From Candidatus Aminicenantota bacterium (lineage in GTDB: Bacteria > Acidobacteriota > Aminicenantia > Aminicenantales > UBA4085), in contig JAUYDS010000095.1 in the NCBI GenBank assembly GCA_030691735.1, positions 1-39,338 on the forward strand: a DNA stretch of 39,338 nucleotides. Direction: 5' to 3'. A program made the translations under genes and the position numbers. Shown here one piece after another: positions 7,048 through 36,144 of this stretch (the first letter of the stretch is position 1; the number at the start of each line of letters is the position of its first letter). The notes beneath the pieces were generated by a model. That model had not been told where the DNA came from. It saw nothing but the letters and a program-made list of their open reading frames with translations, and did no database searches.

Positions 7048-7073
7048 TAGCACAGAACAAATGATTGTGCCAA
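7044..7073 (-). promoter_or_regulatory. Candidate sigma70 promoter of the ABC transporter operon (divergent)
   Basis: Minus strand TTGGCA (7073-7068), 18 bp, TATTAT (7049-7044); the -35 lies inside the operator. Confidence 0.5.
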
Positions 7074-7080
7074 ACGTTTG
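7058..7080 (+). promoter_or_regulatory. LacI-family tandem operator, site 1
   Basis: CAAATGATTG TGC CAAACGTTTG; near-identical 23-mers at 18282-18304 and 36145-36167; contains the perfect palindrome CAAACGTTTG. Confidence 0.85.
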
Positions 7081-7102
7081 TTCTAAGAAAAGAAAAAAAT
7101 CC

Positions 7103-8098
7103 ATGAGTATCAAACGAATCCAGCAAATCACGGGGTTTTCGTATTCGACTATCTCGCGCGTCTTGAACGGGAAAGCCCAGGAGTTCCGCATCTCGGACAA
7201 GACCCGCCAGGCGATCTTTAAGGCCGCGGAATCGCTGAACTACCGGCCGAACATCCTGGCCCGGAGCTTGCGGCTGAAGCGAACGTACACGATCGGCCTC
7301 ATCGTTCCGGACATCAAAAACCCGTTCTTCGGCGAGCTGGCCTCGCGGATCGAAAAGCTTCTCCGGGAGCAAGGGTACAGCACGATCCTCTGCAATACGA
7401 ACGAGATCCCGGAGAACGAGGAATTTTATCTCAAGGTCCTCGTCGACCGTCAGGTCGACGGGATCATCATCGCTCCCATTCACACGAAGGAATGGGACGC
7501 CATGGAGCACATCCGGCGCGAACGGTCCATCGTCCTCATCGACCGCATCTTCTATGAGACCGACATCCCGTGGGTGACGAGCGCCAATGAACAGGCCGCG
7601 GACGAAGTGACCTCCGAGCTGATCGCGATCGGGTATCCCCGAATCGCCTATCTCGGCGGAACCGCGGAAACCTATATCAACACCATGCGGTTCTCGGGCT
7701 ACCGGAAAGCCCTGGAGCGGCACTCCCTGTCCGTGGACGAGCGGATCGTCTTCTTCGAGGGATACTCCCCGGAGGCGGGGGAGGAGATGATGGCGACTCT
7801 CCTCGAACGGGAGCCCGACACCCGGGCCGTCTTCTGCGTCAACAACCTGGTCTTCATCGGCGCGATGAAGGTCGTCCAGAAACACGAGATCGAAACAGGG
7901 CGGTCGATCATGATGGCGGCCTTCGACATCGACCGCTATTGCGAGATCTTCAAGCGGCCGCTTCTTTGCGCCCGGCAGGACCAGGAGAAGCTTGCCGCCA
8001 ACGCGGTCGCGCTGCTCATCGAAGGCATCCGGAACACCGTCGGGCCCGACCGTCACCTGATCGTGCCCGTGTGCGTCGGCAGGCACCGAATCCGCTAG
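7103..8098 (+). CDS. LacI-family transcriptional regulator
   Basis: MSIKRIQQITGFSYSTISRVLNGKAQEFRISDKTRQAIFKAAESLNYRPN... helix-turn-helix plus periplasmic-binding-like effector domain; start codon 7103 preferred over 7061, which lies in the operator. Confidence 0.95.
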   Translation: MSIKRIQQITGFSYSTISRVLNGKAQEFRISDKTRQAIFKAAESLNYRPNILARSLRLKRTYTIGLIVPDIKNPFFGELASRIEKLLREQGYSTILCNTNEIPENEEFYLKVLVDRQVDGIIIAPIHTKEWDAMEHIRRERSIVLIDRIFYETDIPWVTSANEQAADEVTSELIAIGYPRIAYLGGTAETYINTMRFSGYRKALERHSLSVDERIVFFEGYSPEAGEEMMATLLEREPDTRAVFCVNNLVFIGAMKVVQKHEIETGRSIMMAAFDIDRYCEIFKRPLLCARQDQEKLAANAVALLIEGIRNTVGPDRHLIVPVCVGRHRIR

Positions 8099-18304: not shown

Positions 18305-18501
18305 CACGAACAAAAAATGGCCCCGCGTTTGTGTAATGTCTTCCGACAATCAAGTCTATCATCACCATCATTTCTTTTTCTTCACGCAGGTGGGCGTGAG
18401 TTCTTACGGCCAAGACTCGCGTCCGAGGAGGTGACCATAGAGCTTACCGAACGCGAAATCTCCAGGGTTTTTCCAGCCAAGGCAATATCATGGGAGGTCC
18501 A

Positions 18502-21417
18502 ATGAGTCGTAACAAATGGTTTATTTTCGCGATGTTCTGTTCTGTCCTTCTCGTGACCGCGGCGGGTCTTCACGCCCAGGCCACGACAGGAACGTTGCGC
18601 GGCTTCGTCACCGATGACAAAGGGGAGATCCTCCCCGGCGTGACCCTCGAGATCTCGAGCTCGTCCTTGATGACGCCGCGTTCGACCGTCTCGGACGCCC
18701 GAGGCGGCTATCGCTTCATGTATCTTCCTCCGGGCACTTATACGATCTGCGCCAAGCTCCAGAACTTTGAAACCTGCTGGCTCCGGGGCGTCCCGGTCCA
18801 GGTCGGGAACACCTCGACGGCGGACGTCCGGCTGAAGCTCGGGACGCTCGAGAACGAGATCCGAGTTACGGCTGAAGCTCCGCTGATCGACCTCGAGAAG
18901 AGCCAGAAGAACTACAACCTCCAGGTCGAATTGCTCGAGACTATCCCCCTCGCCCCGCGGGCGACCTACGTCGACGCTTTCTTCGTTCTGCCCGGCGTCG
19001 CCGGGGCGTCCCTCAACTCGCCCCTCGTCAACGCCGGGAGCGTCACCCACAACCTCGTCAACTCGACCTACTTCTGGTCCCAGCACAACCAGGACGACGG
19101 CTACGAGAACAAGATCCTGGTCGACGGGATGGAGATCAACGACTCCATGAGCGGGACCTCGTACGCGAATTTCAACTACGAGGCCATCCAGGAGATCGAC
19201 GTCAAGACGGCCGGCGCCGGGGCCGAGTTCGGCAATGCCCGCTCTTCGTTCATGAGCATCGTCACGAAGTCGGGAGGGAACACCTTCCAGGCCTCGCTGT
19301 TCGCCCAGATCCAGCCCCGCTCCTTCAACTGGAGCAACGTCCCGGGCGGCGCGGCGGCCATGCGCAGCTACTATATTCCCAACCTCAACCTCAGCGGCCC
19401 GATCATCAAGGACAAGCTGTGGTTCATGGCCTCCTATAAGTACAACAACGAGATCTCGCAGTACGCCAACACGATCGTGACCAAGGAGCTGCTGCAGGAG
19501 ACCAAGGGCCACATGCCCTACTTCAAGCTGACCTGGCAGCCGGCGGCGAAGCACACCATCAGCGCCGTCTACCAGAACGACTATCAAACGGTCGACGGCG
19601 GCTCCTATGCCAGTGCGATCTACGGCACCGTGGCCACCGCCCAGCAATACCGCCAGGGCGGCCCGATGTACTCCCTGACGTGGCGCTGGCTGATGTCCGA
19701 CAGCCTCTATTTGAACTTCATCGCCGGATACGTAACTAAGCCCCGGGACAATTATTCGACGTCGACGGAACCCCGCACCTCCTACACGGAGCGCGCCCAG
19801 GGCGGTTCGACCCTTCTTGTCGACAAGGGCTACGGTGAGGACTATTACTCGACGCGGGACAACCTCCTCCTGAGCGGCAGTCTGACCTACTACGCCGAGA
19901 ACCTCTTCAACTCGGGCGCTCATGAGCTCAAGTTCGGCGCCGACATCCGTCCCTGGAACCACGTCACCCGAACGCGGAAATACTGGATGGACGAGTTCGG
20001 GTACTATCAGCTCCGCTACGGCCTGGACTACGCGACTTACGGCCTCAGCGCGCCGTACGTCTACCGCGGCTACAACGTCAAGGCCGCTCCCGGGACCCCC
20101 CAGGACCGCTACGACAACGAGGTCGTCGTCTCGAGCGAGAACTTCTTCCTCCAGGACACCTGGGTCGTGAGCAAGAACCTAGCCATTTCGGCCGGCCTGC
20201 GGTGGGAACACCAGAAAGAGAACATGTACTACCGCAACGAGATCCCGGCTTGGATGGACGCGATCTACTCGGACATGCGGAACAACATCGAGTTCGACGA
20301 CTCAGGCTTGGCCCCCCGCATCGGGGTCACCTACAACTGGGAGAAGGTCGGCGTCTTCAAGTTCCACTTCGGCCGCTACTTCGAGTTCGTCGGGACGGGT
20401 GACTACAACAACTACTCCCGGGTGATCGCCTTCGGCGAGTACCGGATGAGCACGGCGAACATCGGGAAGGGCAAGGAGTTCATGACCGTCTACAACGATC
20501 CTCCGCTCGCCTACGCCCCCGACTACAACAAGAACATGAAGGCCGAGTACAACGACGAGTTCACCGTCTCCTTCGAGCGGGAGATCCTGAAGAACCTGGC
20601 CTTCGACACGACGTTCATCTACCGGGCCATCAACACCTCCTACATGGAGGACGTGAACGCCGTTTTCACGAACGGGGCCTTCACCGGACGGGTCTTCCCC
20701 GACTTCGACACGATCTGGATGCGGACCTGGCACGAGGGAGATGCCCGGCGATGGAAGTTCGACTACAAGGGTCTCCAGTTCAACATCAAACGGAACTTCA
20801 CCGGCAATTGGGGCCTGATGGCCAACTACTCCCTGATGTGGAGGACGTACTACAAGCTGGCCTTCGACCCGACCGACGCGAAGCAGTTCGTCTACGCTTC
20901 GGCGCGCGATCTCGACATGGTCAACTACGGCATCGGCTGGGTCTTCCATATCTCGACCTTCTACCGGCTCCCCTGGGACATCCTCCTCTCCACCTACATC
21001 AGCGGACAAGCCGGGATCTATCAGGCCGACACGACCGGCGATTACGCCTGGGACGCCACGGCCCCGACGATCAAGCTGGCCCCGGGCCAGACGGGCACGG
21101 TCCGGACGGTCTCCGACATCGTCTTCCAGGCGAAGAACAACTATTTCGCCGGCAAGAAGTGGGGCGCTCAAGGCCGCTACACCGACAACATCTGGAGCGT
21201 CAACGTCCGTCTGGCCAAAGGCGTCAAGATCGGCAAGTACCGGTTCGAATTCGCCTGCGACTTCTACAACGTCTTCAACTGGGCGGGCTATTCGAGCTAC
21301 GAATCGTCCGATGTCCGCCGCAATTTCGCGGATTCCGCGGGCATCAACCGCTACCTGAACAAGATCGGACCGCAGTCGCCGCGCGCAGCGCAGTTGACGT
21401 TCAAGGTCGAGTTCTAA
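18502..21417 (+). CDS. Oar-like TonB-dependent receptor with N-terminal carboxypeptidase-regulatory-like domain, 1
   Basis: Signal peptide; TTGTLRGFVTDDKGEILPGVTLEISSSSLMTPRSTVSDARGGYRFMYLPPGTYTI; plug LVDGMEINDSMSGTSYANFNYEAIQEIDVKTAGAGAEFGNARSSFMSIVTKSGGN; terminal aromatic FKVEF. Confidence 0.93.
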   Translation: MSRNKWFIFAMFCSVLLVTAAGLHAQATTGTLRGFVTDDKGEILPGVTLEISSSSLMTPRSTVSDARGGYRFMYLPPGTYTICAKLQNFETCWLRGVPVQVGNTSTADVRLKLGTLENEIRVTAEAPLIDLEKSQKNYNLQVELLETIPLAPRATYVDAFFVLPGVAGASLNSPLVNAGSVTHNLVNSTYFWSQHNQDDGYENKILVDGMEINDSMSGTSYANFNYEAIQEIDVKTAGAGAEFGNARSSFMSIVTKSGGNTFQASLFAQIQPRSFNWSNVPGGAAAMRSYYIPNLNLSGPIIKDKLWFMASYKYNNEISQYANTIVTKELLQETKGHMPYFKLTWQPAAKHTISAVYQNDYQTVDGGSYASAIYGTVATAQQYRQGGPMYSLTWRWLMSDSLYLNFIAGYVTKPRDNYSTSTEPRTSYTERAQGGSTLLVDKGYGEDYYSTRDNLLLSGSLTYYAENLFNSGAHELKFGADIRPWNHVTRTRKYWMDEFGYYQLRYGLDYATYGLSAPYVYRGYNVKAAPGTPQDRYDNEVVVSSENFFLQDTWVVSKNLAISAGLRWEHQKENMYYRNEIPAWMDAIYSDMRNNIEFDDSGLAPRIGVTYNWEKVGVFKFHFGRYFEFVGTGDYNNYSRVIAFGEYRMSTANIGKGKEFMTVYNDPPLAYAPDYNKNMKAEYNDEFTVSFEREILKNLAFDTTFIYRAINTSYMEDVNAVFTNGAFTGRVFPDFDTIWMRTWHEGDARRWKFDYKGLQFNIKRNFTGNWGLMANYSLMWRTYYKLAFDPTDAKQFVYASARDLDMVNYGIGWVFHISTFYRLPWDILLSTYISGQAGIYQADTTGDYAWDATAPTIKLAPGQTGTVRTVSDIVFQAKNNYFAGKKWGAQGRYTDNIWSVNVRLAKGVKIGKYRFEFACDFYNVFNWAGYSSYESSDVRRNFADSAGINRYLNKIGPQSPRAAQLTFKVEF

Positions 21418-21511: not shown

Positions 21512-23305
21512 ATGTCCATCCGCCTGAGATCATGGATCCTTCCTGGACTAGGGCTCGGCCTGGTCCTCGTTCTCGCCGCCTGCAGCACCGGTCCGGCCGC
21601 TGATCCCGCCTCGCCGGCGGGTGCTCCGCGGACCGTGTCTCTCGCCGAGGCCGAGGCTTGGGCCCAGAAAACCCTCGGGACGCTCTCTCTCGAGCGCAAG
21701 ATCGGCCAGATGATCTGCGCCGAAATGCGCGGTGAATTCATCGCTGAGGACGATCCCCGCTACCAAAGCTGGCTCAGCCTTGCCCGCGATCACGGGGTCG
21801 GAGCATTCGTCCTCTACGGCGGCACGCCCCAGGACACGGCCGCCCTCCTGAACCGCCTCCAGAAAGCGGCTGACTTGCCCCTCCTCATCTCCTCCGATTT
21901 CGAGGGCGGCCCGGGCCAGCAGATCGTCGGGGCGACGGAATTCCCGGCCAACATGGCCCTCTCCGCCATCGGCTCCGAGGACCTCGCCTACCAGGTCGGG
22001 AAGGCGGGGGCGGCCGAAGGCCGGGCCGTCGGCATCCACATCACATATTCCCCCGTGGTCGATATCCAGACCCGCCCCGACAATCCCGTCCTTGGCGTGC
22101 GTTCCTTCGGCGCCGACATGGACCTCCTTGGCCGGATGGCCGGAGCCTATATCCGCGGCTATCAGGAGAACGGGATGCTGGCCACGGCCAAGCACTACCC
22201 GGGCCGGGGCGAGGTCGAGTTGATCGCCGGGACGGAATACACCATTAATCGCAAGCCCGCCGACCGTGTCGAGGCCGAGGACTTTCTCGCCTTCAAGAAG
22301 GCTATCGACGCGGGCGTGGCCTATATCATGAGCGAACATATCGCCATTCCATCGGTCACCGAAGGCTCGGACCTGCCGGCCAGCGTCGAGAAGCGGCTGG
22401 CCACGGACTGGCTCCGCGGCCGCCTCGGCTTCCAGGGCATCCTGACGACCGACGACATGTGGTACGAGAAAGTCGTCCAGAGGTTCGGCGCGGTCGAAGC
22501 CTGCGTCCTGGCCGTCGAAGCCGGCCACGACGCCGTCCTCAAGCCCGCCGATCCCGTGGCGACAATCCGCGGATTGGTCGAGGCCGTGAAGTCGGGACGG
22601 ATCCCCGAGGCCCGGATCGACTCCTCGGTCAAGAAGATCCTGACCTGGAAGGCGCGGCTCGACCTGCCCCGCAACCGGTTCGTGGACGAGAGCCATGTCG
22701 CCTCCGTCGTCGGCCGGCAGTCCCACAAAGCCCTCCTCCAGAAGATCGCCGACGAATCCCTAACCCTGGTCAAGAACGACGGCTTCTTCCCCTCCACGGC
22801 GGACAAGCTCGGATCGATCGTCCATGTCACGATCCAGAGAAGAGAGGTCGATCCCGTCCCGGCCCTGGTCGATGCCAAGATTAAGGCCGCCTTCCCGAAG
22901 ACGAGGACTTTTTTCCTCGGCCCCACGACGGCCAAGGAGCGTTACGCCGAAGCTGTGAAAGCAGCGCAGGCGGCGGACACCGTCGTCATTTCTCTCTTCC
23001 ATCCCCGGACGGCCTATAAAGACAACGGGCCGTTGAAGCCCGCCGACCTGGAATTCCTGAACCGGATCATCGCGGCCAAGCCGAAGACCACAATCGCCGT
23101 CGCCTACGGGAATCCCTACCTGGCCGCGGGGCTGAAAAACGCCGCCGCGTTCGCCGTCGGGTACGGGGAGGGAGGCTTCTTCGGCAACCAGATCGTCTAT
23201 GCCGATTCCTTCATTCGCCTGCTCAAAGGCGAGATCAAGCCGGCCGGAAAGCTCCCCGTGAACGTCTCGGTCGATTTCCCCGTCGGAACCGGGGTTCGCT
23301 ACTGA
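21512..23305 (+). CDS. Two-domain GH3-family lipoprotein (beta-N-acetylhexosaminidase/glucosidase-like)
   Basis: Lipobox VLAAC; KIGQMICAEM, SSDFEGGPGQQIVGATEFPANMAL, KHYPGRGE, GFQGILTTDDM; C-terminal (alpha/beta) sandwich domain. Confidence 0.85.
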   Translation: MSIRLRSWILPGLGLGLVLVLAACSTGPAADPASPAGAPRTVSLAEAEAWAQKTLGTLSLERKIGQMICAEMRGEFIAEDDPRYQSWLSLARDHGVGAFVLYGGTPQDTAALLNRLQKAADLPLLISSDFEGGPGQQIVGATEFPANMALSAIGSEDLAYQVGKAGAAEGRAVGIHITYSPVVDIQTRPDNPVLGVRSFGADMDLLGRMAGAYIRGYQENGMLATAKHYPGRGEVELIAGTEYTINRKPADRVEAEDFLAFKKAIDAGVAYIMSEHIAIPSVTEGSDLPASVEKRLATDWLRGRLGFQGILTTDDMWYEKVVQRFGAVEACVLAVEAGHDAVLKPADPVATIRGLVEAVKSGRIPEARIDSSVKKILTWKARLDLPRNRFVDESHVASVVGRQSHKALLQKIADESLTLVKNDGFFPSTADKLGSIVHVTIQRREVDPVPALVDAKIKAAFPKTRTFFLGPTTAKERYAEAVKAAQAADTVVISLFHPRTAYKDNGPLKPADLEFLNRIIAAKPKTTIAVAYGNPYLAAGLKNAAAFAVGYGEGGFFGNQIVYADSFIRLLKGEIKPAGKLPVNVSVDFPVGTGVRY

Positions 23306-23360: not shown

Positions 23361-25310
23361 ATGATGCGTCGTATCATCCTCGCCCTGATCATCGCCGGAA
23401 GCCTGACCGCCTTCGCCCAGGACCAGCTGAGCGTCATCACCCGCAAGCAGCCCGGGCAACGGATGCGGAATTCGAGCGGCCTCTTCGACCCGGAGTCCAA
23501 TGCCGACGCCTTCCACATCGACCCGGGCGAGACCGTTGTCCTGGCCGACCTCGACGGACCCGGCGAGATCCAGCACATCTGGTTCACCATCGGCGCGTAC
23601 GAGCGCCGCTATCCGCGGACCATGGTCTTTCGTATCTATTGGGACGGCGCGGACGTGCCGTCCGTGGAGTCCCCGATCGGCGATTTCTTCGCCGCCGGGA
23701 ACGGCATGCGGGCCAACGTCAGCACCCTGCCGATCGAGGTGACCTCGTACGGCCGGGCCCTCAACTGCTACTGGAAGATGCCGTTCGCCCGGAAAGCCCG
23801 CCTGACCATGACGAACGAAGGCGCCGAGGCCATCACTTCGTGCTACTTTTATATCGACTGGGCCAAGCTCGATACCCTTCCGCCCGAGACTCTGTACTTC
23901 CATGCCCGGTATAACCAGGAATGGCCGGTCACGCCGTTCGCCCCGTACACGCTCCTCCAGGTCGACGGCGACGGCCAGTACGTCGGGAGCGTCATCAGCC
24001 TTCATTGTTCGGTCGGGAGCTGGTTCGGGGAATCCGACGATCATTTCTATATCGACGGCGAGGAGGAACCGAGCCTGATCGGGACGGGCTTCGAGGACTA
24101 TTTCTCGGACGCCTGGAATCTCCGCTTATTCAGCAACCTGAACGCCGGGATCACCATCCGCGAATGGAACGGCGAAGACGCCCGGATTACCGGATACAAG
24201 TGGCACATCCAGGACCCGGTGATGTTTAAGAAGTCGCTCAAGGTGGATGTGGAGCGCCGGAGCTATGTTGCCGTGACCGATCCGAAGACGGGTCAGGTCG
24301 CCCCCGGCGATTTCAAGTACCGGGCCGATTTCTGCTCCTCGGTCGCTTTCTGGTATCAGCGGACGATCGCCGCGCCGTGGAGGCCTTTCCCGAAGCTCCG
24401 CGAACGGCTCATGCCCGAGATCTGGGTCGAGCCGCGGGAGATGGCCGAGCTCCCGCTGGAGAAGGCCGTCCTGAGGACGTCCCCCGGTCTCAAGCCCCAG
24501 TCCGTATCCAACCGGACCGGTTGGCGGAAGCTGATGTTCTATATGTACAACGACAAGCCGGGCGCCTGGATCGAGATGCCCTTCCAGATCGACGAGGAGG
24601 GGCGGTATTCGACCTCGATCCTTCCCATTCTCTTCCGGGAGAACGGGATCTGGAAGGTCAGCCTCAAGGGCCCGGGATTCGATAAGGTCCTTGACCCGAA
24701 ATTCGACCTCTGGGATCCGTATCTCGCTTGGAAGGAAAACTATCCCGAGAACGAGGTGTTCGGGACGAACATCGAGAAAAAAATGGGCATCTTCGACCTG
24801 CGTCCGGGCGATTATGTCTTCCGTTTCGAATGCGTCGGCGCCCATCCCTTCTCCATCGACGCAAAAACGGGGAAAAACGGCTACAGCCTTCGCCTCGACG
24901 GCATCTCCGTCCGCCGCCTCCCCTGGGGCGATATGAGCGAATGGTACCGCGATTATCTGAAAAAGGAAGAAGCGCTTTTCGCCCGCAAGATCGCCCAGGC
25001 GAAAGCGACCGTGGCCGAGCTGGCCAAGTCCATCCAGGCCTTCCAGAAAGACTGGGGTCGGTATCCCGAGACCCTGGACCTCCTCGTCACCCGGCCCGCG
25101 GACCTGAACCGGAGCTGGGCCAGCCGGGCGGGACAGTGGCCGTATTACAAGGGCGACCGCATCCCCCTCGATCCCTGGGGGCAGAAATATCGATTTCTCG
25201 ATCCGGGCCGCTACAATCCCGGCTCCTTCGACGTCTGGTCCGTCCACGGCAATAGCCGCAATCCGTCGGGTTGGATCGGGAACTGGACACCCCTTCCCTC
25301 CAAAAAATAG
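23361..25310 (+). CDS. DUF2961 / GH172-family protein with C-terminal GspG-like (T2SSG) domain
   Basis: RIYWDGADVPSVESPIGDFFAAGNGMRANVSTLPIEV and WFGESDDHFYIDGEEEPSLIGTGFEDYFSDAW (DUF2961); C-terminus VAELAKSIQAFQKDWGRYPETLDLL...LDPWGQKYRFLDPGRYNPGSFDVWSVHGNSRN resembles the pseudopilin GspG. Confidence 0.88.
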   Translation: MMRRIILALIIAGSLTAFAQDQLSVITRKQPGQRMRNSSGLFDPESNADAFHIDPGETVVLADLDGPGEIQHIWFTIGAYERRYPRTMVFRIYWDGADVPSVESPIGDFFAAGNGMRANVSTLPIEVTSYGRALNCYWKMPFARKARLTMTNEGAEAITSCYFYIDWAKLDTLPPETLYFHARYNQEWPVTPFAPYTLLQVDGDGQYVGSVISLHCSVGSWFGESDDHFYIDGEEEPSLIGTGFEDYFSDAWNLRLFSNLNAGITIREWNGEDARITGYKWHIQDPVMFKKSLKVDVERRSYVAVTDPKTGQVAPGDFKYRADFCSSVAFWYQRTIAAPWRPFPKLRERLMPEIWVEPREMAELPLEKAVLRTSPGLKPQSVSNRTGWRKLMFYMYNDKPGAWIEMPFQIDEEGRYSTSILPILFRENGIWKVSLKGPGFDKVLDPKFDLWDPYLAWKENYPENEVFGTNIEKKMGIFDLRPGDYVFRFECVGAHPFSIDAKTGKNGYSLRLDGISVRRLPWGDMSEWYRDYLKKEEALFARKIAQAKATVAELAKSIQAFQKDWGRYPETLDLLVTRPADLNRSWASRAGQWPYYKGDRIPLDPWGQKYRFLDPGRYNPGSFDVWSVHGNSRNPSGWIGNWTPLPSKK

Positions 25311-25319
25311 GAGGTTCAC

Positions 25320-26408
25320 GTGTCCGCTTACGAAATGAAACGCCGCTCGTTCTTCGCCGGGCTCGTCGGCGCATGGATGGCGGGCCCGACCGTGGGAAAG
25401 CTCACCGCCCGGTCGGCTCGTCAGGGATCTCCCCGACGCCCGCTCATCGTCACCAGCAAGACGAACCCTTACGTGAAAGAAGCCGTCACCGCCGCCGCTT
25501 GGGACGTTCTCCAAAAGGGCGGCACCCCCCTCGACGCGGCCGAGAAAGCCGTCAATGTCGCCGAGCTCGATCCGCGGGACCCGTCGGTCGGCTATGGCGG
25601 GGATCCCAATGAAGAGGGTTTCCTCCAGCTTGACGCCGCGGTCATGGACGGAGCCAGGGGGAACATTGCCGGCGCCGTCGCCTCCCTGGAAAACATCAAG
25701 ACGCCCTGCTCGGTCGCCCGTCTGGTCATGGAGCGGACAGATCACCTCCTCCTTGTCGGTAAGGGCGCCCTGAAATTCGCCAAGATGCACGGTTTCAAGG
25801 AGGAGGATTTATTAACCGAGGAGGCCCGCCGACACTGGCGGGACTGGAAGGAAAACCTCAGCGACCGGGATTATTATCTGGCGCCCGACAAGCGCTTCAA
25901 GCCCGAGGGCGGGGGGACGATCAACGTCCTCGTCCTCGACGCCAAGGGAGACATGGCCGGCGTGACGAGCACGGTCGGGCACCGCTTCAAGATCGTCGGC
26001 CGGGTCGGCGACTCGCCGATCATCGGGGCGGGGCTTTACGTCGACAACGCCGTCGGCGCCGCCGGGGCGACCGGCCACGGGGAAGAATCGATCAAGGTCT
26101 GCGCGAGCTTCCTGGCCGTCGAGAAGATGCGCGAAGGCCGTTCTCCCCTGGAGGCCTGCCGATACGTCTGCCAACGGATCATCGACCGCCACAAAGGTCG
26201 GCCGCTGTTCGGTTTTAAGATCGTCGCTTTGAATAAAAACGGAGATCACGGCTGCTGTTCCATCCGCGGACAGATCGACGCCGCAACGAATAAAGTCGTC
26301 GGGCTCGGTTTCGCCGTCCACGATGAGAAGGGACACCGGATCGAGCCCGGACTGGCCCTCCTCCCTCCCATGAGCGCCGCGGAGCGGAGCTCCGTACCGT
26401 GGCGTTGA
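25320..26408 (+). CDS. Glycosylasparaginase (N4-(beta-N-acetylglucosaminyl)-L-asparaginase)-like Ntn hydrolase, Tat-like signal
   Basis: MKRRSFFAGLVGAW leader; VGYGGDPNEEGFLQLDAAVMDG; GTINVLVLDAKGDMAGVTSTVG...GRVGDSPIIGAGLYVDNAVGAAGATGHGEESIK; GTG start with SD ggagg. Confidence 0.9.
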   Translation: MSAYEMKRRSFFAGLVGAWMAGPTVGKLTARSARQGSPRRPLIVTSKTNPYVKEAVTAAAWDVLQKGGTPLDAAEKAVNVAELDPRDPSVGYGGDPNEEGFLQLDAAVMDGARGNIAGAVASLENIKTPCSVARLVMERTDHLLLVGKGALKFAKMHGFKEEDLLTEEARRHWRDWKENLSDRDYYLAPDKRFKPEGGGTINVLVLDAKGDMAGVTSTVGHRFKIVGRVGDSPIIGAGLYVDNAVGAAGATGHGEESIKVCASFLAVEKMREGRSPLEACRYVCQRIIDRHKGRPLFGFKIVALNKNGDHGCCSIRGQIDAATNKVVGLGFAVHDEKGHRIEPGLALLPPMSAAERSSVPWR

Positions 26409-26427: not shown

Positions 26428-28077
26428 ATGAAAGATCAGATGATTAAACGCAGATCGATCCTCTTCGTCGGCGTGCTGCTTGCCGCCGCCGCGCTGGTCC
26501 TTTCTTACGCCGCCGGCCGCCAGGCCGGGCTCGGCCAGGCCCCCCCGTTCCATACCGGCGGAACTCTCTTTCCGGAGCCTGGCCCGGCCGTAGCGCCTGC
26601 CGGTCCGGTTCAGGCCGATACGCCGATGATGCTCCTGGCCCGGCCGAAGAATTTCTCGGCCGCCCGGGTCAGCTCCTTCGCCCGGAACGGCCTCAACCTG
26701 GACACGCTCCCCGTCCCGGCCGATGGCCAGGAGGTGACGCTCGCCGACCTCAAGGGCCCCGGCGCCATCACCCACATCTGGATGACCTACCGCGGCGGGA
26801 GCGAGAATCTCATCCTCCGCATCTACTGGGACGGGAATCCCAATCCCAGCGTCGAAGCGCCCCTAGGGGATTTCTTCGGCGTGGGCATGGGCATCACGGT
26901 CCCCATCTCCAGCCAGCCCATCCAGTGCACCTCCGGCGGCCAGTCCAAGAACTGCTGGTGGTACATGCCCTACAACTCCTCTGCCCGAGTCACCTTGACG
27001 AACCTTCGTTCGCCGGACTTTTTCAAGAACACGAACGTCAACCTCCGTCACCAGAACCGTTTCTATTATCACGTGGAATACCAATCCTACAGCCAACCGG
27101 TGAAGGATCTCCGGTACTTCCATGCCCGCTTCCTCGAGACCGATCCCCCGGACCGCGGCAAGCCCGTGACGCTCCTCGACGTCGAAGGAGACGGCCATTT
27201 CGTCGGTGTCGTCCTGGGCAACCGCTCCCGGACGCCCGGCTGGTTCGGCGAGGGCGACGACATTTTCACCGTGGACGGCCGCCTGTCCATGGTCGGCACC
27301 GGGACCGAGGATTATTTTTGCGACGCTTGGGGCCTACGCGTGTTCAGCGAGCAATTCTTCGGCTGTCCGGTCTTCGAGGGCCGCGAGATCGGCCACCGCA
27401 CCAGCCTCTACCGCTTCCACATCAACGATCCCATCCCGTTCCGCAAATCGTTCAAGTTCGAGATCGAGCATTGGCCCTGGATCAGCGAGTTCCCCAACAC
27501 CGGGCGGGACTATTTCTCCAGCCTCGGGTTCTGGTATCAGAAGGGCTTCCATAAGCCCTGGCCGCGCCTGGGCAAGCTCATCCAGGCTGAGCCGTGGGAT
27601 CCGGCGAAAGGACGTTGGCACGTCGCCGACGCTCTCGAAGCGGAGGACCTGGCCATCCTGGGCTACAAGAGCGCCAAAGGCGAGGCCGGCCGGCCCGAGC
27701 GGCAGCTCCTCATGCCGAACCAGAGCGGCGACCACATGCTCCTCTTCGACTCCGGCGGCTCGGGCGAAGTCTCGCTCGCCGTGCCCGCGGAGCGGGAAGG
27801 CCTGTACACGGTCAAGATCCACTTCCTCCGGGCCCCGGACTACGGGATCGTCCGCCTGGCCGTCAACGGTGCGCCCACCGGAGAGCCGATCGACCTGCAC
27901 CGGGCCTTTGTCGAGATGTTCCCCCGCGAAGTCTGGCCGCCCCAGGAATATGTCTTTAAGGATGTTCCGCTCAAGGCGGGCCTGAACACGTTCATCTTCG
28001 CGGTCAACGAGAAGAATGCCGAAGCGACTGGATCCAAGCTCGGAATCGACTGCCTGGTCCTGGGCCCGGCCCGCTGA
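26428..28077 (+). CDS. DUF2961 / GH172-family protein
   Basis: 549 aa; RIYWDGNPNPSVEAPLGDFFGVGMG; WFGEGDDIFTVDGRLSMVGTGTEDYFCDAW; C-terminal beta-sandwich-like extension. Confidence 0.88.
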   Translation: MKDQMIKRRSILFVGVLLAAAALVLSYAAGRQAGLGQAPPFHTGGTLFPEPGPAVAPAGPVQADTPMMLLARPKNFSAARVSSFARNGLNLDTLPVPADGQEVTLADLKGPGAITHIWMTYRGGSENLILRIYWDGNPNPSVEAPLGDFFGVGMGITVPISSQPIQCTSGGQSKNCWWYMPYNSSARVTLTNLRSPDFFKNTNVNLRHQNRFYYHVEYQSYSQPVKDLRYFHARFLETDPPDRGKPVTLLDVEGDGHFVGVVLGNRSRTPGWFGEGDDIFTVDGRLSMVGTGTEDYFCDAWGLRVFSEQFFGCPVFEGREIGHRTSLYRFHINDPIPFRKSFKFEIEHWPWISEFPNTGRDYFSSLGFWYQKGFHKPWPRLGKLIQAEPWDPAKGRWHVADALEAEDLAILGYKSAKGEAGRPERQLLMPNQSGDHMLLFDSGGSGEVSLAVPAEREGLYTVKIHFLRAPDYGIVRLAVNGAPTGEPIDLHRAFVEMFPREVWPPQEYVFKDVPLKAGLNTFIFAVNEKNAEATGSKLGIDCLVLGPAR

Positions 28078-28129: not shown

Positions 28130-29782
28130 ATGAAACGCAGCCTGATTGCGGCGGCCGCGCTGGCGGCCATCCACTGCCTGGCCATTCCCCTGGCCTCCCA
28201 GTCCCTGTCCGTCCTGACTCTGCCCCAGGAGGGCCGGTCCATGCGGGCCTCGAGCGGGAACACGGGCAACAACGACGACGCCATCGACCTGGCCAAGGGC
28301 GAGACGAAGACGATCGCCGTGCTCGAAGGGCCCGGGAAGATCACCCACTTCTGGCTCGTCCCCTGGTCCCAGGATATCCGGTTCACCTGCGCCCTGGTCC
28401 TGCGCATCTACTGGGATGGCGCCGCCGTCCCCTCGGTCGAGGTCCCTCTCGGCGATTTCTTCGCCGCCGGGAACGGGATGCGGGCCGAGGTCAATTCGCT
28501 TCCGGTCAAAGTCAGCTCGTTCGGACGCGGCTATAACTGCTACTGGGAGATGCCGTTCAGGAAGCGGGCTCGGATCACCATTACCAACGAATCGGACAAG
28601 GAGACGGCCGGGACCTACTACCAGATCGATTGGGTCAAGTACGACCAACCGCCGCCCGCGGTCATGTATTTCCATGCCCGCTACCACCAGGAATATCCGG
28701 CCGAGATGGGCAAGCCCTACACGGTCTTCATCGGCAAGGGCCGCGGCCATTACGTCGGCACGGTCCTCTCCTCGCAGAACGGCATCGGCCACTGGTTCGG
28801 GGAGGGGGACGACAACTTCACCATCGACGGCGAAACGACGCCCTCCATCCTCGGCACCGGGACCGAGGACTACATCAACGAGGCCTGGAACATGCGCGTC
28901 CATACCGGGCTCTATACCGGCTGCACGATCTTCGAGCCCCGGTCCCCGGACGCCCGGGTGACGGCCTACCGCTGGCACATCCAAGACGCCGTCTTGTTCC
29001 GCAAATCGCTCAAGTTCACCATCGAGCGGCGCGGCTACGTCATGAACGCCAAGGGCGAGGTCGTCGCCCAGTCGGGTTCGCGCCCGGACAACTGGTCGTC
29101 GGTCTCGTACTGGTACCAGGACGCCGTCGCCGAGCCCTGGTGCCCCTTCCCGCCATATAAAGAGCGGGTTAATCCGGAGATCGTGCTGCATCTCCCGGAA
29201 GTGATCAAGACCATGACCCACTCGGCCGGGGTCGAGCTCCGCATCCTGCCCTACAGCCGGGCGACCTGGACCAAGCCCTGGTTCCATGTCAAGAACGAGA
29301 CCGTCGGCTCCTGGGTCGAAATCCCCTTCACCATCCCCGAGAAGGGCCGCTACTCCATGTCCCTCTTCCAAACGCTCCGGACGGACGAAGGCATCTGGAA
29401 AGTCCTGGTCGATGGAAAGGAGATCTATGAGGTCGGCGAATCGCACATCCCCGGCGGCTACGACGTGGACATGGTCACCCAGCAGCCGCTCAACCGGATC
29501 AATACGACCCTCGACTTCTTCAACGTCTTCCGCAAGGACGAGCACGAGGACATCATCTACGGCCAGCGCCGGGAGGCCAAGATCGGCTTGTTCGAATTCG
29601 GCCCCGGAAAACACACCCTCCGCCTCGTCTGCGTCGGGGCGAACCCCTTGTCCGTCGATCCGTTGACCGGGAAGCCCGGCTATAACATGGCCGCCGACGT
29701 TCTGTCCCTCCGGAAGTTCCCCTTCGAGAACATGGACGCCTGGATCGACAAGATGCTCGAGATGGAGAAAAGGAAGAAGTGA
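28130..29782 (+). CDS. DUF2961 / GH172-family protein (tandem copy a)
   Basis: Start MKRSLIAAAALAAIHCLAIPLASQ with SD aaggag; RIYWDGAAVPSVEVPLGDFFAAGNGMRAEVNSLPV; WFGEGDDNFTIDGETTPSILGTGTEDYINEAW. Confidence 0.9.
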   Translation: MKRSLIAAAALAAIHCLAIPLASQSLSVLTLPQEGRSMRASSGNTGNNDDAIDLAKGETKTIAVLEGPGKITHFWLVPWSQDIRFTCALVLRIYWDGAAVPSVEVPLGDFFAAGNGMRAEVNSLPVKVSSFGRGYNCYWEMPFRKRARITITNESDKETAGTYYQIDWVKYDQPPPAVMYFHARYHQEYPAEMGKPYTVFIGKGRGHYVGTVLSSQNGIGHWFGEGDDNFTIDGETTPSILGTGTEDYINEAWNMRVHTGLYTGCTIFEPRSPDARVTAYRWHIQDAVLFRKSLKFTIERRGYVMNAKGEVVAQSGSRPDNWSSVSYWYQDAVAEPWCPFPPYKERVNPEIVLHLPEVIKTMTHSAGVELRILPYSRATWTKPWFHVKNETVGSWVEIPFTIPEKGRYSMSLFQTLRTDEGIWKVLVDGKEIYEVGESHIPGGYDVDMVTQQPLNRINTTLDFFNVFRKDEHEDIIYGQRREAKIGLFEFGPGKHTLRLVCVGANPLSVDPLTGKPGYNMAADVLSLRKFPFENMDAWIDKMLEMEKRKK

Positions 29783-29784
29783 CC

Positions 29785-31449
29785 ATGAACGCGAAGAGAC
29801 TTCGGATCGCTCGCTCTGGACTGGCTGCCCTCGCCGCCGCGGCATTCGCTCTCCCCGCCGCCGGCCAGGACCTCAACGACCTCATGCGGGCCCGGGAAGG
29901 GATCAGCGCGAGAGCATCGACGAGCAAGCTCACCGAGAACGGCGACTCCATCCGCCTGGAGAAGGGCGAGAGCCGCACGGTCGCCGTCCTCAAGGGCCCC
30001 GGAAAGATCGCCCACATCTGGCTCATCGCCAATTCGATGGACATCCGCTATCCCCGCGCGGTCGTCCTGCGCATCTACTGGGACGGCGCCGCCGTTCCGT
30101 CGGTCGAAACGCCCGTCGGCGACTTCTTCGCGGCCGGGAACGGGATGCGGGCCGACATCGACTCGCTCCCGGTCAAGTCCAGCTCCTACGGACGCGGCTA
30201 CAACTGCTACTGGCCGATGCCGTTCCGGAAGGAGGCCCGGATCGTCATCGCCAACGAGTCGGACAAGGAATCGGCCGGCATCTTCTACTATATCGACTGG
30301 GTCAAGCTCGACGCCGTCCCCGACGACATGATGTACTTCCACGCCCGCTATCACCAGGAATATCCTCCGGTGATGGGCGAGCCGTACACCGCCTTCGTCG
30401 GGAAAGGACGGGGCCACTACGTCGGGACCGTCCTGTCTTCTCAGAACGCCATCGGTCACTGGTTCGGGGAGGGGGACGACTTCTTTTACATCGACGGCGA
30501 GACGACGCCTTCCATCCTCGGGACCGGGACGGAGGACTATTTCAACGATGCCTGGAACATGCGCGTCCACACGACCCTGTTCACCGGCTGCACCATCTTC
30601 GAGCCGCGCGGGATCGACGCGCGGATCACCGCCTACCGCTGGCACATCGCCGACCCGGTCATTTTCAAAAAGTCCCTCAAGTTCGAGATCGAGCGCCGCG
30701 GCTTCGCCATGAATTCGAAAGGTGTGGTTATCGACAGCTTCAAGCCCCGTCCGGATTACTGGTCGTCGGTGTCCTACTGGTACCTCGACCGGATCGCCGA
30801 GCCGTGGTGCCCCTTCCCGCCCTACAAGGACCGGGTCAATCCCGAGATCGTCCTCCACCTGCCCCAGGTCGTCAAGACCATGCGCCATTCGGCCGGGGTC
30901 GAGATCCAGGTCCTGCCCTACAACCGGGCGACCTGGACCAAGCCCTGGTTCCGGGTCAAGAACGAGACGATCGGGTCCTGGATCGAGATCCCCTTCGAGG
31001 TCAAGGAGAAGGGCCGATACTCCATGTCGATCTTCCAGACGCTCCGCGAGGACCAGGGGATCTGGAAGGCCTATGTCGACGGCAAGGAACTCACCGACGC
31101 CGGGGAGTCCCAGATCGCCGGCGGATACACCATCGACGAGGTCACGCAGCTCCCGCCCGAGAAGGTCAACAAGGTCCTGGACTTCTACAACGTCTACAAG
31201 AAGAACGAGCACGAGGACTACATCTGGGGCCAGGGCCGGGAGCGGAAGATCGGCCTGTTCGAGTTCGGGCCGGGGACGCACACCCTGAAGCTCGTTTGCA
31301 TCGGAGCCAATCCGCAGGCGGTCGACCCGGAGACGGGCAAGCCCGGCTACAACCTGGCCGCGGACATTCTCTCCCTGCGCAAGCTCCCCTTCGAGAACAT
31401 GGACGCCTGGCTGGAGAAAATGCTCGAGATAGAGAAAAAGAAGAAGTGA
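29785..31449 (+). CDS. DUF2961 / GH172-family protein (tandem copy b)
   Basis: Collinear with the preceding protein along its length; WFGEGDDFFYIDGETTPSILGTGTEDYFNDAW; ATG at 29785 directly follows the upstream stop. Confidence 0.9.
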   Translation: MNAKRLRIARSGLAALAAAAFALPAAGQDLNDLMRAREGISARASTSKLTENGDSIRLEKGESRTVAVLKGPGKIAHIWLIANSMDIRYPRAVVLRIYWDGAAVPSVETPVGDFFAAGNGMRADIDSLPVKSSSYGRGYNCYWPMPFRKEARIVIANESDKESAGIFYYIDWVKLDAVPDDMMYFHARYHQEYPPVMGEPYTAFVGKGRGHYVGTVLSSQNAIGHWFGEGDDFFYIDGETTPSILGTGTEDYFNDAWNMRVHTTLFTGCTIFEPRGIDARITAYRWHIADPVIFKKSLKFEIERRGFAMNSKGVVIDSFKPRPDYWSSVSYWYLDRIAEPWCPFPPYKDRVNPEIVLHLPQVVKTMRHSAGVEIQVLPYNRATWTKPWFRVKNETIGSWIEIPFEVKEKGRYSMSIFQTLREDQGIWKAYVDGKELTDAGESQIAGGYTIDEVTQLPPEKVNKVLDFYNVYKKNEHEDYIWGQGRERKIGLFEFGPGTHTLKLVCIGANPQAVDPETGKPGYNLAADILSLRKLPFENMDAWLEKMLEIEKKKK

Positions 31450-31468: not shown

Positions 31469-33193
31469 CTATCGGTACAGCGTCGGGGTCTTTCTCCAGT
31501 CCTTGTCCTTGTCGTGGCCGAACTCGGCCACCCGCGGCCGCCGCTCGAGCAGGCGGACCGATTCCAAGGCGCAGGCGTAGCCCGCGCTCTGAGGGTTCTT
31601 GCCCGCGCCCTCGAGGCGGAGCGTGTAGGTCCCCGGCTCCGGCCAGAAATCGAGAAGCTGGAATTCCTGCCGGCCGGACCGGTCGGCGTAGAAATCGAGC
31701 GGCCGGGCGATCTTCACGCCATTCAGGAAGGCCTGGTATGTGCCTCCATCCACGGCGCGCGTTCCGCGGAGGACGAGGTGGAGCGGCTCTTTGGCCTTGA
31801 CCTCGAAGGGGATCTCGATCCAGGCGCCCGGAGACTGGCGCGGCTGATAGACGAGGTCCTCGGCGCCGAAGGGATCGCTCGTCCGCTTGGAGACCGGGCC
31901 TTCACCGTGGCGGGCCGTGGCCGCGAGAGCGCCGGCTTTGACCGTTACGCGTGAAAGGTCCTGAAGGCGCCGGTCGGCCATGCCGGGAGCGCGCTCGGCG
32001 AAGGTCGGAACGCCCGTCTGGTACCAGAAGGCCGTGCTGGCGTAATCATCCTCGCGATCGTTCCAGCTCGTGGATTTGTACTCGGGATTCTCGTCCTGCG
32101 ACATCCAGCCCATGTGCTCGAAGGTCACCTTGAGGCTTGTTTTGAAGGGCATCGGGTCCTCGATGTGCCAGCGGTAGGCGCTGGTGTGGCCGCCGATGCC
32201 GCGGAAGTCGAAGAACGGCACACCGAAGTAGGGCGTCCCGTTCGTCTTTAATCCCCAGGCGGAAAGAAAATAATCTTCCGTGCCCGTCCCCCAGATCGAC
32301 GGCTTCGTCTCGCCGTCGACGTAGACCTTCTCGTCGCCCTCGCCGAACCAGGCCGGGCTGCGCATGCGCACGGCCAGGACAGTCCCGACGTAATGGCCTT
32401 TTCCGGCCGTCTCGAGGACGACGTAGTCCTTTCCCTTCACGGCGGGGTATTCCTGCCGGTACTGGGCGTAGAAGTAGGGGGTGTCCTTGGGCAGATTGTC
32501 CAGCTTGATCCAGTCGATGTTGAAATAGAGCATGCTGAACGGCAAGCCGCCCTGGTTCTGGTTCTCGATCTCTATCCGGGCCGACTTGCGGAAGGGCATC
32601 CGCCAGAAGCAGTTGTAGGAATCGGCGTCCTCGACGACGACGGGCAGGCTGATGACCTCCCGGCGCTCGCCGAAGCAGTTGGCGAAGAAATCGCCGAGGG
32701 GCGCCTCCACCGCCGGCCGCGGATTGCCGTCCCAGTACATCCGGAGCATGAGCTCCTGATGGTTGGCCGAGCCCTTGGGGGCCCAGTTCTGGGGTTCCGG
32801 TCCGAGGAAGGTGATCCAGATATGGGTGACCACGCCCGGGCCGGACTCGTCCATGAGGACGTGGGTCGCTCCGGCCGGCACCGTGTAGTTGTCCCAGTTG
32901 CTCTGGACTTCGCCGTCGCCCTTGAAGTCGGCCTTGGGATCGTACTTCCGGGGGCCCAGCTCCCGCTCACCGTTGGGGCCGCGCCGCAGCTCGCCGACGC
33001 GCATGGCCGAGGTGGCCCGCATCGCCTTGCCGTCGATAGGACGGGATAGGTCACCCAGGAAGCCGCCGCCGGCCGGGGCGCCGGAACGGTCGCCTTGGCA
33101 GCCGGTCGTCCAGGCCAGCGTGAAGAGGGCCAATAGGACCAGGAAGGACGACAGAACGCCTTTCTGGGCATCGAAGGAACGGATGGATCTCAT
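31469..33193 (-). CDS. DUF2961 / GH172-family lipoprotein
   Basis: 574 aa; lipobox TTGC; MYWDGNPRPAVEAPLGDFFANCFG; WFGEGDEKVYVDGETKPSIWGTGTEDYFLSAW; SD agagga. Confidence 0.88.
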   Translation of the reverse strand: MRSIRSFDAQKGVLSSFLVLLALFTLAWTTGCQGDRSGAPAGGGFLGDLSRPIDGKAMRATSAMRVGELRRGPNGERELGPRKYDPKADFKGDGEVQSNWDNYTVPAGATHVLMDESGPGVVTHIWITFLGPEPQNWAPKGSANHQELMLRMYWDGNPRPAVEAPLGDFFANCFGERREVISLPVVVEDADSYNCFWRMPFRKSARIEIENQNQGGLPFSMLYFNIDWIKLDNLPKDTPYFYAQYRQEYPAVKGKDYVVLETAGKGHYVGTVLAVRMRSPAWFGEGDEKVYVDGETKPSIWGTGTEDYFLSAWGLKTNGTPYFGVPFFDFRGIGGHTSAYRWHIEDPMPFKTSLKVTFEHMGWMSQDENPEYKSTSWNDREDDYASTAFWYQTGVPTFAERAPGMADRRLQDLSRVTVKAGALAATARHGEGPVSKRTSDPFGAEDLVYQPRQSPGAWIEIPFEVKAKEPLHLVLRGTRAVDGGTYQAFLNGVKIARPLDFYADRSGRQEFQLLDFWPEPGTYTLRLEGAGKNPQSAGYACALESVRLLERRPRVAEFGHDKDKDWRKTPTLYR

Positions 33194-33281: not shown

Positions 33282-36062
33282 TCAGAATTCGTAACGGACG
33301 CCCAGACGGAGGATCCGCGGGGCCATGATGCCGGTCAAGATGCCGTACGTGAACAGGCCGGGATTGCTGGACCTCGTTTCGATGGCGGTCGCCGTGTTGG
33401 CGTTGAAGACGTTGAAAATGTCCAGCATGAACTCGACCTTTCCGTACCGTCCCGGCAGGCTGAAGGACTTGTCGATCCGCAGGTCGAGGTTCGTCAGGTT
33501 CGGACGGAGCGAAGCTCCTTTTCCCTCGGCATTGATGGTTACCGTTCCCTGGGCGAGATTCAGACCGAGGTCGCTGCTCCGGATCTGCCGGGTGCTGGGA
33601 TAACCGTTGTAATGGTAGAAGAATCCGCTGATGTTGAATCCCCATGGGAGCGTGTAGGTGCCTTGGATTTTGACCTGATGCATCGGGACGAGAGGATCGC
33701 GGCCGAAGGCGTTGGTCATCGAATTCGGGTTGTTGAAGAGGCCGGTGGAGCCCGTGCTACTCAGCCCAAGCAGGTTCTTGGCGTTGGCGTAGACATAGGA
33801 CGCGGTCATCTGCCAGCGATGGGAGTAGCGCTTGGTGAATGTCACTTCGACCGACTCATAGTCTCGTGTGTTATCGGGAGGGTTCGTGATGTACATCGAC
33901 GTGGGGATGGCGGTGTTGGTGACGCCCCAGAAAGTGATGCTCTGGCCGCTGTAAGGATCGACGACCGAGTACGGCGTGTAGTTCGTCCAGACGAGCTCTC
34001 CGTTGCCGAGGGCGTTCATGTCCAGGGCGTTCCGGTCCACGTCGTCGATCTGGTTGCGGTCCCATTTCCGGATGTAGCGCAAGCTGAGCCGGGCGTCCTT
34101 TAGGAGCTCCCGCTCGATCCCCACCGTGACCTCATCGACGTAGGGGACTTTGAGGTCCGAGTCGATCTGCGAGGCGGCCGTGGCGCTGAATGAATACGGG
34201 CCGCCTTTCAGCGTCCAATCCGGATTGAGGGCCTGCCGCCAGGAGATGGATCCATTGGGATTGATGCCGACGAACAAGGTGGAGATGGCCGAGGAGTAGT
34301 ATCGGCCGAAGCTCGCCTTGACGACCGTCTTGTTGTCGCGGGTCAGCGCGTAGGCGGCGCCCAGGCGGGGCGAGATTGTATCCCAGGTCAGCGCCGTGAA
34401 CTGGGACGCGACCCGCGGGTCATAAGTGACGCCTCCATAGACCACGGGTTCGCGGTCCTGGCCCTGTTCCGGAACGATGCCGACCTGATGGTCATAGCGG
34501 ACGCCGAGGTTGAGCGTCAGCCGCTCGGTCAGGCGCCAGGAATCCTGGATGAATCCACCGATCATGATGTTATTGTCTTTGCGCGTGTAGTCCATCCGGT
34601 GGAGAATGTACGACGGCACCGCGCTGCTGAGATAGATGAGGTTGCTGAGATTATAGCGGGGGTCGACGTTGTAATTGTTCTGGGCGACCTCCCAGCCGTA
34701 CCAGGCTTCGATGCCGGTTTTGAACTCGTGCCGTCCCATCCAATCGTCGACGAAGTATGTCCCGTCCAGGTTGAACTGCAGCTTCGGCCGCTTGGTGATG
34801 TTGGTATTGCCGTAGCTCTGGGAATAGAAGCCGGTGACCTGGTCATAGATGCCGATGAGGTCGTTCTTGGCCTCGAATTCCAGCTTGTGGGTGACGTAAG
34901 CGAGCTTGGCGTTCATGAAGAAGTTGCCGCTGAAGAACCGCGTCCCTTGGAGGTTGAACGTGTTCGTGGGATTGTTCTGGAGGTAGGTCGTGTCCTCGTT
35001 GCGGTAGCGGCTGGCGTCGCGGTTCGTCCGGCGGATGTTCTGATGGTTGTACGACAGGACGATCTTGCTCTTCTCATCGACCTGCCAGCTCAGCTTGGCG
35101 TATGGATAGTAGCGCCAGTTGTCGACGGGGATCGTCTGCGACTGGGCCCAAGGGAAGCCGTCCACGTACTGGTCGAGGCTGTAATAGGACATGTTGGCGA
35201 AAAACCAGAGCTTGTTCTTGACGATGGGACCGCCGATGTTGAGGTTCCAATCGAATTCTTTCTTCAGCCCGACGAACTGGCCGGCCAGGGGGGTGCCCGC
35301 GGTGTTGTCAGCCTGGAAGCTCTTATTGCGGAAGTAGTAGCTGGCCTGGGCGTGGAATTCGTTCCCGCCGGACTTGGTGATGGCGTTGATGACCGCGCCG
35401 CGGACGTTCCCGTATTCGGCCCCCAGGCCTCCCGTGTCCACGGCGAGCTCTTCTATGATGTCGAACCCGTAGCTGACCAGGAGACCGCCCGTCAGCGGGT
35501 CGGAGATGTTGACGCCGTCGATCATAAACGCGTTGTCGCTCGTCGCGGCCCCGTGGTACGTTTCGCTGACGACCCCTGGGACGACGGAGAAGAACGAGAC
35601 GAGGAGCTGCCGCTGAGTCGGCACCTTCATCAGGAATTCCTTAGGGTACGTGGCCGTGATCGTCGTTTTCTGGATATCGACCGTCGGGGATTGGCCGGTC
35701 ACGGTCACGCTTTCCTGGATCGCCGACAGCTCTAGGTCGACGTTTAAGGTCGTCGTCTCGCCGACGGAGATGCGGATGTCTTCCCGGACCAGCGTCCTGA
35801 ACCCCGTCAGCGTGAAGGTCATTTTGTAGAGGCCGGGAGCCAGGGCCGGAAATCGGTAAAAGCCTTTATCGCCGGTCACCAGCGTCATCTGGGGGACAAT
35901 AAGAGCCGGAGAAACAATGGTAATTGTCACCCTCGGAAGGGCGTTTCCGTCCTTTTCCTGAATGAAGCCGCTCAACGTGCCGGTCAGGATGATCTGCGCA
36001 TTGGCGTTAAAAGAAAACACGAGAAGAAAAAGGACGACGATTAAAAATCTCCTATGAAGCAT
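33282..36062 (-). CDS. Oar-like TonB-dependent receptor with N-terminal carboxypeptidase-regulatory-like domain, 2
   Basis: ATG at 36062 with SD aaggagg; LSGFIQEKDGNALPRVTITIVSPALIVPQMTLVTGDKGFYRFPALAPGLYKMTFTLTGF; plug FMIDGVNISDPLTGGLLVSYGFDIIEELAVDTGGLGAEYGNVRGAVINAITKSGGNEFH; C-terminal LGVRYEF. Confidence 0.93.
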   Translation of the reverse strand: MLHRRFLIVVLFLLVFSFNANAQIILTGTLSGFIQEKDGNALPRVTITIVSPALIVPQMTLVTGDKGFYRFPALAPGLYKMTFTLTGFRTLVREDIRISVGETTTLNVDLELSAIQESVTVTGQSPTVDIQKTTITATYPKEFLMKVPTQRQLLVSFFSVVPGVVSETYHGAATSDNAFMIDGVNISDPLTGGLLVSYGFDIIEELAVDTGGLGAEYGNVRGAVINAITKSGGNEFHAQASYYFRNKSFQADNTAGTPLAGQFVGLKKEFDWNLNIGGPIVKNKLWFFANMSYYSLDQYVDGFPWAQSQTIPVDNWRYYPYAKLSWQVDEKSKIVLSYNHQNIRRTNRDASRYRNEDTTYLQNNPTNTFNLQGTRFFSGNFFMNAKLAYVTHKLEFEAKNDLIGIYDQVTGFYSQSYGNTNITKRPKLQFNLDGTYFVDDWMGRHEFKTGIEAWYGWEVAQNNYNVDPRYNLSNLIYLSSAVPSYILHRMDYTRKDNNIMIGGFIQDSWRLTERLTLNLGVRYDHQVGIVPEQGQDREPVVYGGVTYDPRVASQFTALTWDTISPRLGAAYALTRDNKTVVKASFGRYYSSAISTLFVGINPNGSISWRQALNPDWTLKGGPYSFSATAASQIDSDLKVPYVDEVTVGIERELLKDARLSLRYIRKWDRNQIDDVDRNALDMNALGNGELVWTNYTPYSVVDPYSGQSITFWGVTNTAIPTSMYITNPPDNTRDYESVEVTFTKRYSHRWQMTASYVYANAKNLLGLSSTGSTGLFNNPNSMTNAFGRDPLVPMHQVKIQGTYTLPWGFNISGFFYHYNGYPSTRQIRSSDLGLNLAQGTVTINAEGKGASLRPNLTNLDLRIDKSFSLPGRYGKVEFMLDIFNVFNANTATAIETRSSNPGLFTYGILTGIMAPRILRLGVRYEF

Positions 36063-36144
36063 GAACAAACCTCCTTATAGAATTATGCGCGATTCCGATT
36101 ACCCTCTCTTTAGACCTGAATGTAGCAATTCCCTGAAGCTTGCT

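Follow-up and report, generated by a model that had tools for sequence, protein, structure and literature searches.

A domain derived from the soluble part of GspG, the major pseudopilin of type II secretion systems (T2SS), is fused to the C-terminus of a GH172 glycosidase in an uncultured Candidatus Aminicenantota bacterium. The fusion gene (positions 23361..25310, plus strand, of the 39,338-nucleotide stretch analyzed here, hereinafter the window) encodes a protein of 649 amino acids which, judging from the open reading frame (ORF), Pfam searches, alignment with paralogs and a structure model, consists of a signal sequence, a GH172 double jelly-roll, a beta-sandwich region, a long helix and a GspG-like (T2SSG) domain. 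The frame is open over its full length, with no internal stop, and the result is a new domain architecture built from known families; no description of a GH172-T2SSG fusion was found in the literature searched, which covers few subscription journals. Given that the GspG-derived tail has been stripped of the parts used to build the pseudopilus, a secretion component seems to have found new use as an enzyme module. The scenario we moderately favor is that the captured GspG fold is an accessory module that either binds the substrate or a target surface or packs close to the active site within the oligomer of GH172.

The sequence-only reading of this DNA placed a GspG-like domain at the C-terminus of a GH172 protein, and both families are indeed matched in one frame, DUF2961 (PF11175) with 239 bits (cut-off 27, E 5.1e-71) and, in the profile search that the reading had proposed, PF08334 with 51.8 bits (cut-off 21; residues 543-628, nt 24987-25244). 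The tail lies within the span then given, 24964-25310, but the start of that span is one base out of frame, and homology begins at about 24987, so that the domain covers approximately residues 543-642 (24987..25286, plus strand). Searched alone, the tail scored 56.2 bits with PF08334 and matched eight GspG-type chains from the PDB in a phmmer search (E 3.8e-7 to 2e-4), and hhalign aligned it with nine canonical GspG at 99.0% probability (E 2.5e-18) over 95 columns, which include the alpha1C helix and the GRYP, DPWG.KY and FD.WS motifs. The score for TIGR01710, the GspG equivalog model, is 34.6, below its cut-off of 88.85. The Pfam, PDB and hhalign matches rule out chance resemblance and establish homology of the tail with the soluble domain of GspG. 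In a phylogenetic tree, the five fused domains that we identified (see below) form one group (support 94/91) to which neither canonical GspG nor the pilins of the host genome belong; derivation of the tail from these pilins is thus unsupported, with the caveat that their placement is uncertain because of long branches.

The tail differs from GspG in what it has lost and gained. As the sequence-only reading had noted, the prepilin N-terminus (GF[TS]LIE) is missing, and so is the hydrophobic stalk; the domain is preceded instead by the GH172 part and a polar helix. The prepilin motif is present in nearly all canonical relatives. The aspartates of the GspG calcium loop are calcium ligands; in the alignment, both are missing in all five fusions and kept in nearly all canonical relatives. 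T2SS pseudopilins are stabilized by calcium (PMC5131608). The loop that reads GxDG...AD[IV] in the canonical GspG of the phylum reads HG[NH]SR...WIGNW in the five tails, and in the window the segment VHGNSRNPSGWIGNW (25242..25286, plus strand) replaces GxDG...AD[IV]xxW. The five tails further share an NP insertion ahead of FD and, preceding the PY/PF motif, a longer loop, RPA..NR.......W. The fusion gene lies outside any gsp operon, among genes for a GH3 glycosidase, an Asparaginase_2 protein and further GH172 proteins. With neither leader nor stalk, and with the calcium-loop aspartates missing from all five copies, the tail cannot be a working pseudopilin, and the possibility that it functions as a pseudopilus subunit is ruled out. 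The captured domain has shed the features required for pseudopilus building, in that it has neither a prepilin leader nor a hydrophobic stalk helix and the aspartates of the calcium loop are gone, while two of its loops, both remodeled and conserved, have acquired a pattern of aromatic, His and Arg residues.

The enzyme part is readily recognizable. The catalytic domain (residues 86-333; 23616..24359, plus strand) matches GH172 chains from the PDB with E-values down to 2.3e-49, and a Foldseek search with a weak structure model retrieved GH172 structures as the best matches (4kq7, 8ah3, 7v1v, 8ic8). The fusion shares the double jelly-roll and the aligned catalytic glutamates with alphaFFase1 of Bifidobacterium dentium (7v1v) and with exo-alpha-D-arabinofuranosidases (8ic8, 8ah3), from which it differs by the additional beta-sandwich region and the GspG-like tail. 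Specifically, E224 (24030..24032, plus strand) aligns with Glu270 of alphaFFase1 (WWGEG / WFGES) and E245 (24093..24095, plus strand) with Glu291 (GTGTEDYF / GTGFEDYF), the proposed acid/base and nucleophile, respectively (PMC8605356); the nucleophile motif reads GTGFED in the fusion versus GTGTED in its paralogs and alphaFFase1. A Sec-type signal sequence, MMRRIILALIIAGSLTAFAQ, can be read at the start of the protein (23361..23420, plus strand); inspection of this leader revealed no GFTLIE prepilin motif, and a hydrophobic leader is also found at the start of the fusion orthologs. The fusion protein is therefore predicted, from its sequence features, to be an exported and catalytically active GH172 furanosidase. 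Between the catalytic domain and the tail, residues 341-510 (24381..24890, plus strand) form a beta-sandwich (CBM-like) region in the structure model, for which no Pfam family and no sequence match was found. DUF2961 domains are found joined to other domains, which are commonly carbohydrate-binding or cell-attachment ones (PMC8812541), and the fusion resembles these proteins in combining a GH172 domain with an extra one; in contrast, no pseudopilin-type appendage was found in the main text of that study, from which the phrase 'type II secretion' is absent. In other GH172 proteins of the same order, the C-terminal extension is of another kind, with no match beyond a weak one to PA14.

The survey for such fusions suggested by the sequence-only reading was performed at three levels: the whole protein was searched against 31 related genomes, PF08334 and a profile built from the five tails against the order (95 genomes), and the five-tail profile against the phylum (396 genomes). 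The whole-protein search yielded a full-length relative in genome G022 (75% identity) and a split copy in G025. The five best PF08334 scores across the order belong to the fusion in the host genome (G000), G035, G022, G025 and G044, and the profile recovered exactly these five (5 of the 95 genomes), which represent three families of one order. Besides G000 and G022, the matches in the phylum are mainly canonical prepilins in frames of about 140-190 residues; no further fusion was seen there among the matches, the weak ones having been read in part. Among the next GH172 relatives, identity over a long match does not exceed about 50%, and no tail is present in those that were read; viral contigs gave no match. 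Between complete orthologs, identity is 81-91% in the GH172 part and 61-74% in the T2SSG part; the tail is thus conserved, yet it changes faster than the enzyme. Remnants of the operon exist as well: genome G007 (contig C76, locus L019) retains the end of the GH3 gene and residues 1-35 of the fusion, after which come about 1 kb of sequence that is unrelated and may be a mobile element, and then another GH172 gene; in G028, fragments are found within a gapped scaffold.

T2SSG-like soluble domains also occur outside ordinary prepilins elsewhere in the phylum. Several genomes encode proteins that combine a zinc ribbon, a membrane helix and a T2SSG-like domain (L038, L043, L079, L085); in other proteins the domain is found with TPR (L036, L053) or in products of about 550 amino acids (L034, L040). 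These proteins differ from the fusion in their weaker T2SSG matches and, often, the presence of a membrane helix, and none of them includes a glycosidase.

In the window, the gene order is GH3, fusion, Asparaginase_2, GH172, GH172, GH172. The GH3 glycosidase (NagZ/YbbD-type; 21512..23305, plus strand; identified with Pfam) also adjoins the fusion in G035 and G044, and the Asparaginase_2 protein (25320..26408, plus strand; Pfam), which is closest to glycosylasparaginase, is kept in G035, G044 and G025. The three GH172 paralogs (26428..28077, 28130..29782 and 29779..31449, all plus strand; Pfam and alignment) lack T2SSG; the ORF of the second opens at 28016, with the signal sequence at 28130. 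In the other genomes, where genes were named by similarity to those of the window upon visual inspection of their ends and lengths, the arrangement is GH3, fusion, GH172, Asparaginase_2 in G035; GH3, fusion, GH172, Asparaginase_2, GH172, GH172, GH3 in G044; fusion, Asparaginase_2, GH172 in G025; and outer-membrane protein, fusion, GH172 in G022. Given the GH3 gene of the YbbD/NagZ type and the glycosylasparaginase-type gene, the gene content points to the degradation of a glycan that bears furanosides and is either Asn-linked or contains amino sugars as the putative role of the operon, and the exported GH172 furanosidase would act within this conserved glycan-degradation operon. In known glycosylasparaginases, the catalytic Thr is preceded by His-Asp; the protein encoded at 25320-26408 has GGGT at the corresponding site. 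In the GH3 protein (21512-23305), KHYPGRGEVELIAGTEY stands in place of the DSH dyad motif, which leaves the acid/base residue of this enzyme in doubt. A further GH172 gene and a TonB-type outer-membrane protein gene are located on the minus strand (31472-33193 and 33285-36068), and another TonB-type outer-membrane protein and a LacI regulator are encoded at 18490-21417 and 7061-8098, respectively, which suggests a larger glycan-use region.

The paralogs at 28130 and 29785 stop where the sequence-only reading had them stop, and the downstream paralogs end at the same helix, past which the 23361 protein runs on for about 110 residues. The structure model, as well as a model of the tail alone, predicts a continuous helix (residues 525-565; 24933..25055, plus strand) that links the end of the GH172 protein with the alpha1C segment of the GspG fold, with moderate confidence for the helix itself (pLDDT about 52-71); the value is 57 for the whole protein, very low for its T2SSG part (about 32-44) and 50 for the isolated tail. 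Thus, the C-terminal helix of GH172 would continue directly into the captured globular domain. In GH172 structures, the C-terminal helices contribute to oligomerization and the active site is located at the protomer interface (PMC8605356); in BACUNI_00161, the C-terminal helix joins two trimers. A purely structural role, whereby the tail extends this helix and stabilizes or alters the oligomer without binding any ligand, is consistent with these features and is a real if minority possibility. However, the short-helix paralogs do without the domain, and the two loops that gained conserved residues (SxHGxSR and WIGNW) lie outside the helix and go beyond what packing of a helix would demand.

Alternatively, the tail could be a secretion or docking tag, recognized by the machinery of a type IV pilus or of a T2SS-like system, which would bring the enzyme to the pseudopilus or the secretin for release. 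Like T2SS substrates, the fusion carries a signal sequence, and self-association has been observed for the recombinant soluble domain of a pseudopilin, a mitochondrial GspG (PMC8134430). The host genome encodes two secretins, two T2SSF proteins and seven N_methyl prepilin matches. A second secretin cluster, on contig C73, includes a secretin with TPR and cohesin domains, T2SSM_b, a PilM-like gene, T2SSE and T2SSF, and divergent pseudopilins, one of which reaches a sub-threshold 18.7 for T2SSG, are encoded on contig C20; taken together, these genes suggest that a T2SS-like system may be present. The secretin of the C73 cluster (L092, 1556-3718) has the TPR at its N-terminus and the cohesin domain at its C-terminus. 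Against such a role, no canonical GspG scores above the PF08334 cut-off in this genome, which is about 92.5% complete, so that the gene may be unassembled; because the fusion is the only match above the cut-off, there is no close GspG partner for the tail to mimic. Furthermore, this tail is lacking in the other GH172 proteins of the operon, the fusion is limited to five of the 95 genomes of the order, in which T2SSG and pilin genes are much more common, and the calcium loop and the stalk are lost. The suggestion of a secretion or assembly tag made in the sequence-only reading is therefore weakened, given that the parts needed for incorporation into the pseudopilus are gone and no other match rises above the cut-off; owing to the T2SS-like gene cluster, docking retains a small probability. 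The glycan-binding or protein-docking module that the same reading also put forward is likewise hypothetical. The specific version in which the tail couples the secreted glycosidase to a T2SS-like machine with a diverged GspG, the pseudopilin fold being the secretion address of the cargo, seems a shade less probable still.

The same narrow phylogenetic range could point to an accidental, functionless fusion. However, the frame is open, 46 of the 95 tail positions are invariant among the four complete copies, the tail is present in all five copies from three families and no unfused ortholog of the fused group was found, which makes neutral persistence highly improbable. An assembly or gene-calling artefact, one of the outcomes under which the sequence-only reading would have been withdrawn, is ruled out for practical purposes by the same junction in independent assemblies, the fusion being complete in G022, G035 and G044 and split over the ends of two contigs in G025.

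The fusion shows the globular domain of a pseudopilin put to use apart from filaments, as part of an enzyme, and the five natural fusions provide a defined set for probing the role of such a domain. How T2SS machines recognize their cargo is a long-standing question, on which the fusions would bear if the tail is a secretion address. If it is a binding module, the tail would represent a new kind of accessory domain for GH172 enzymes.
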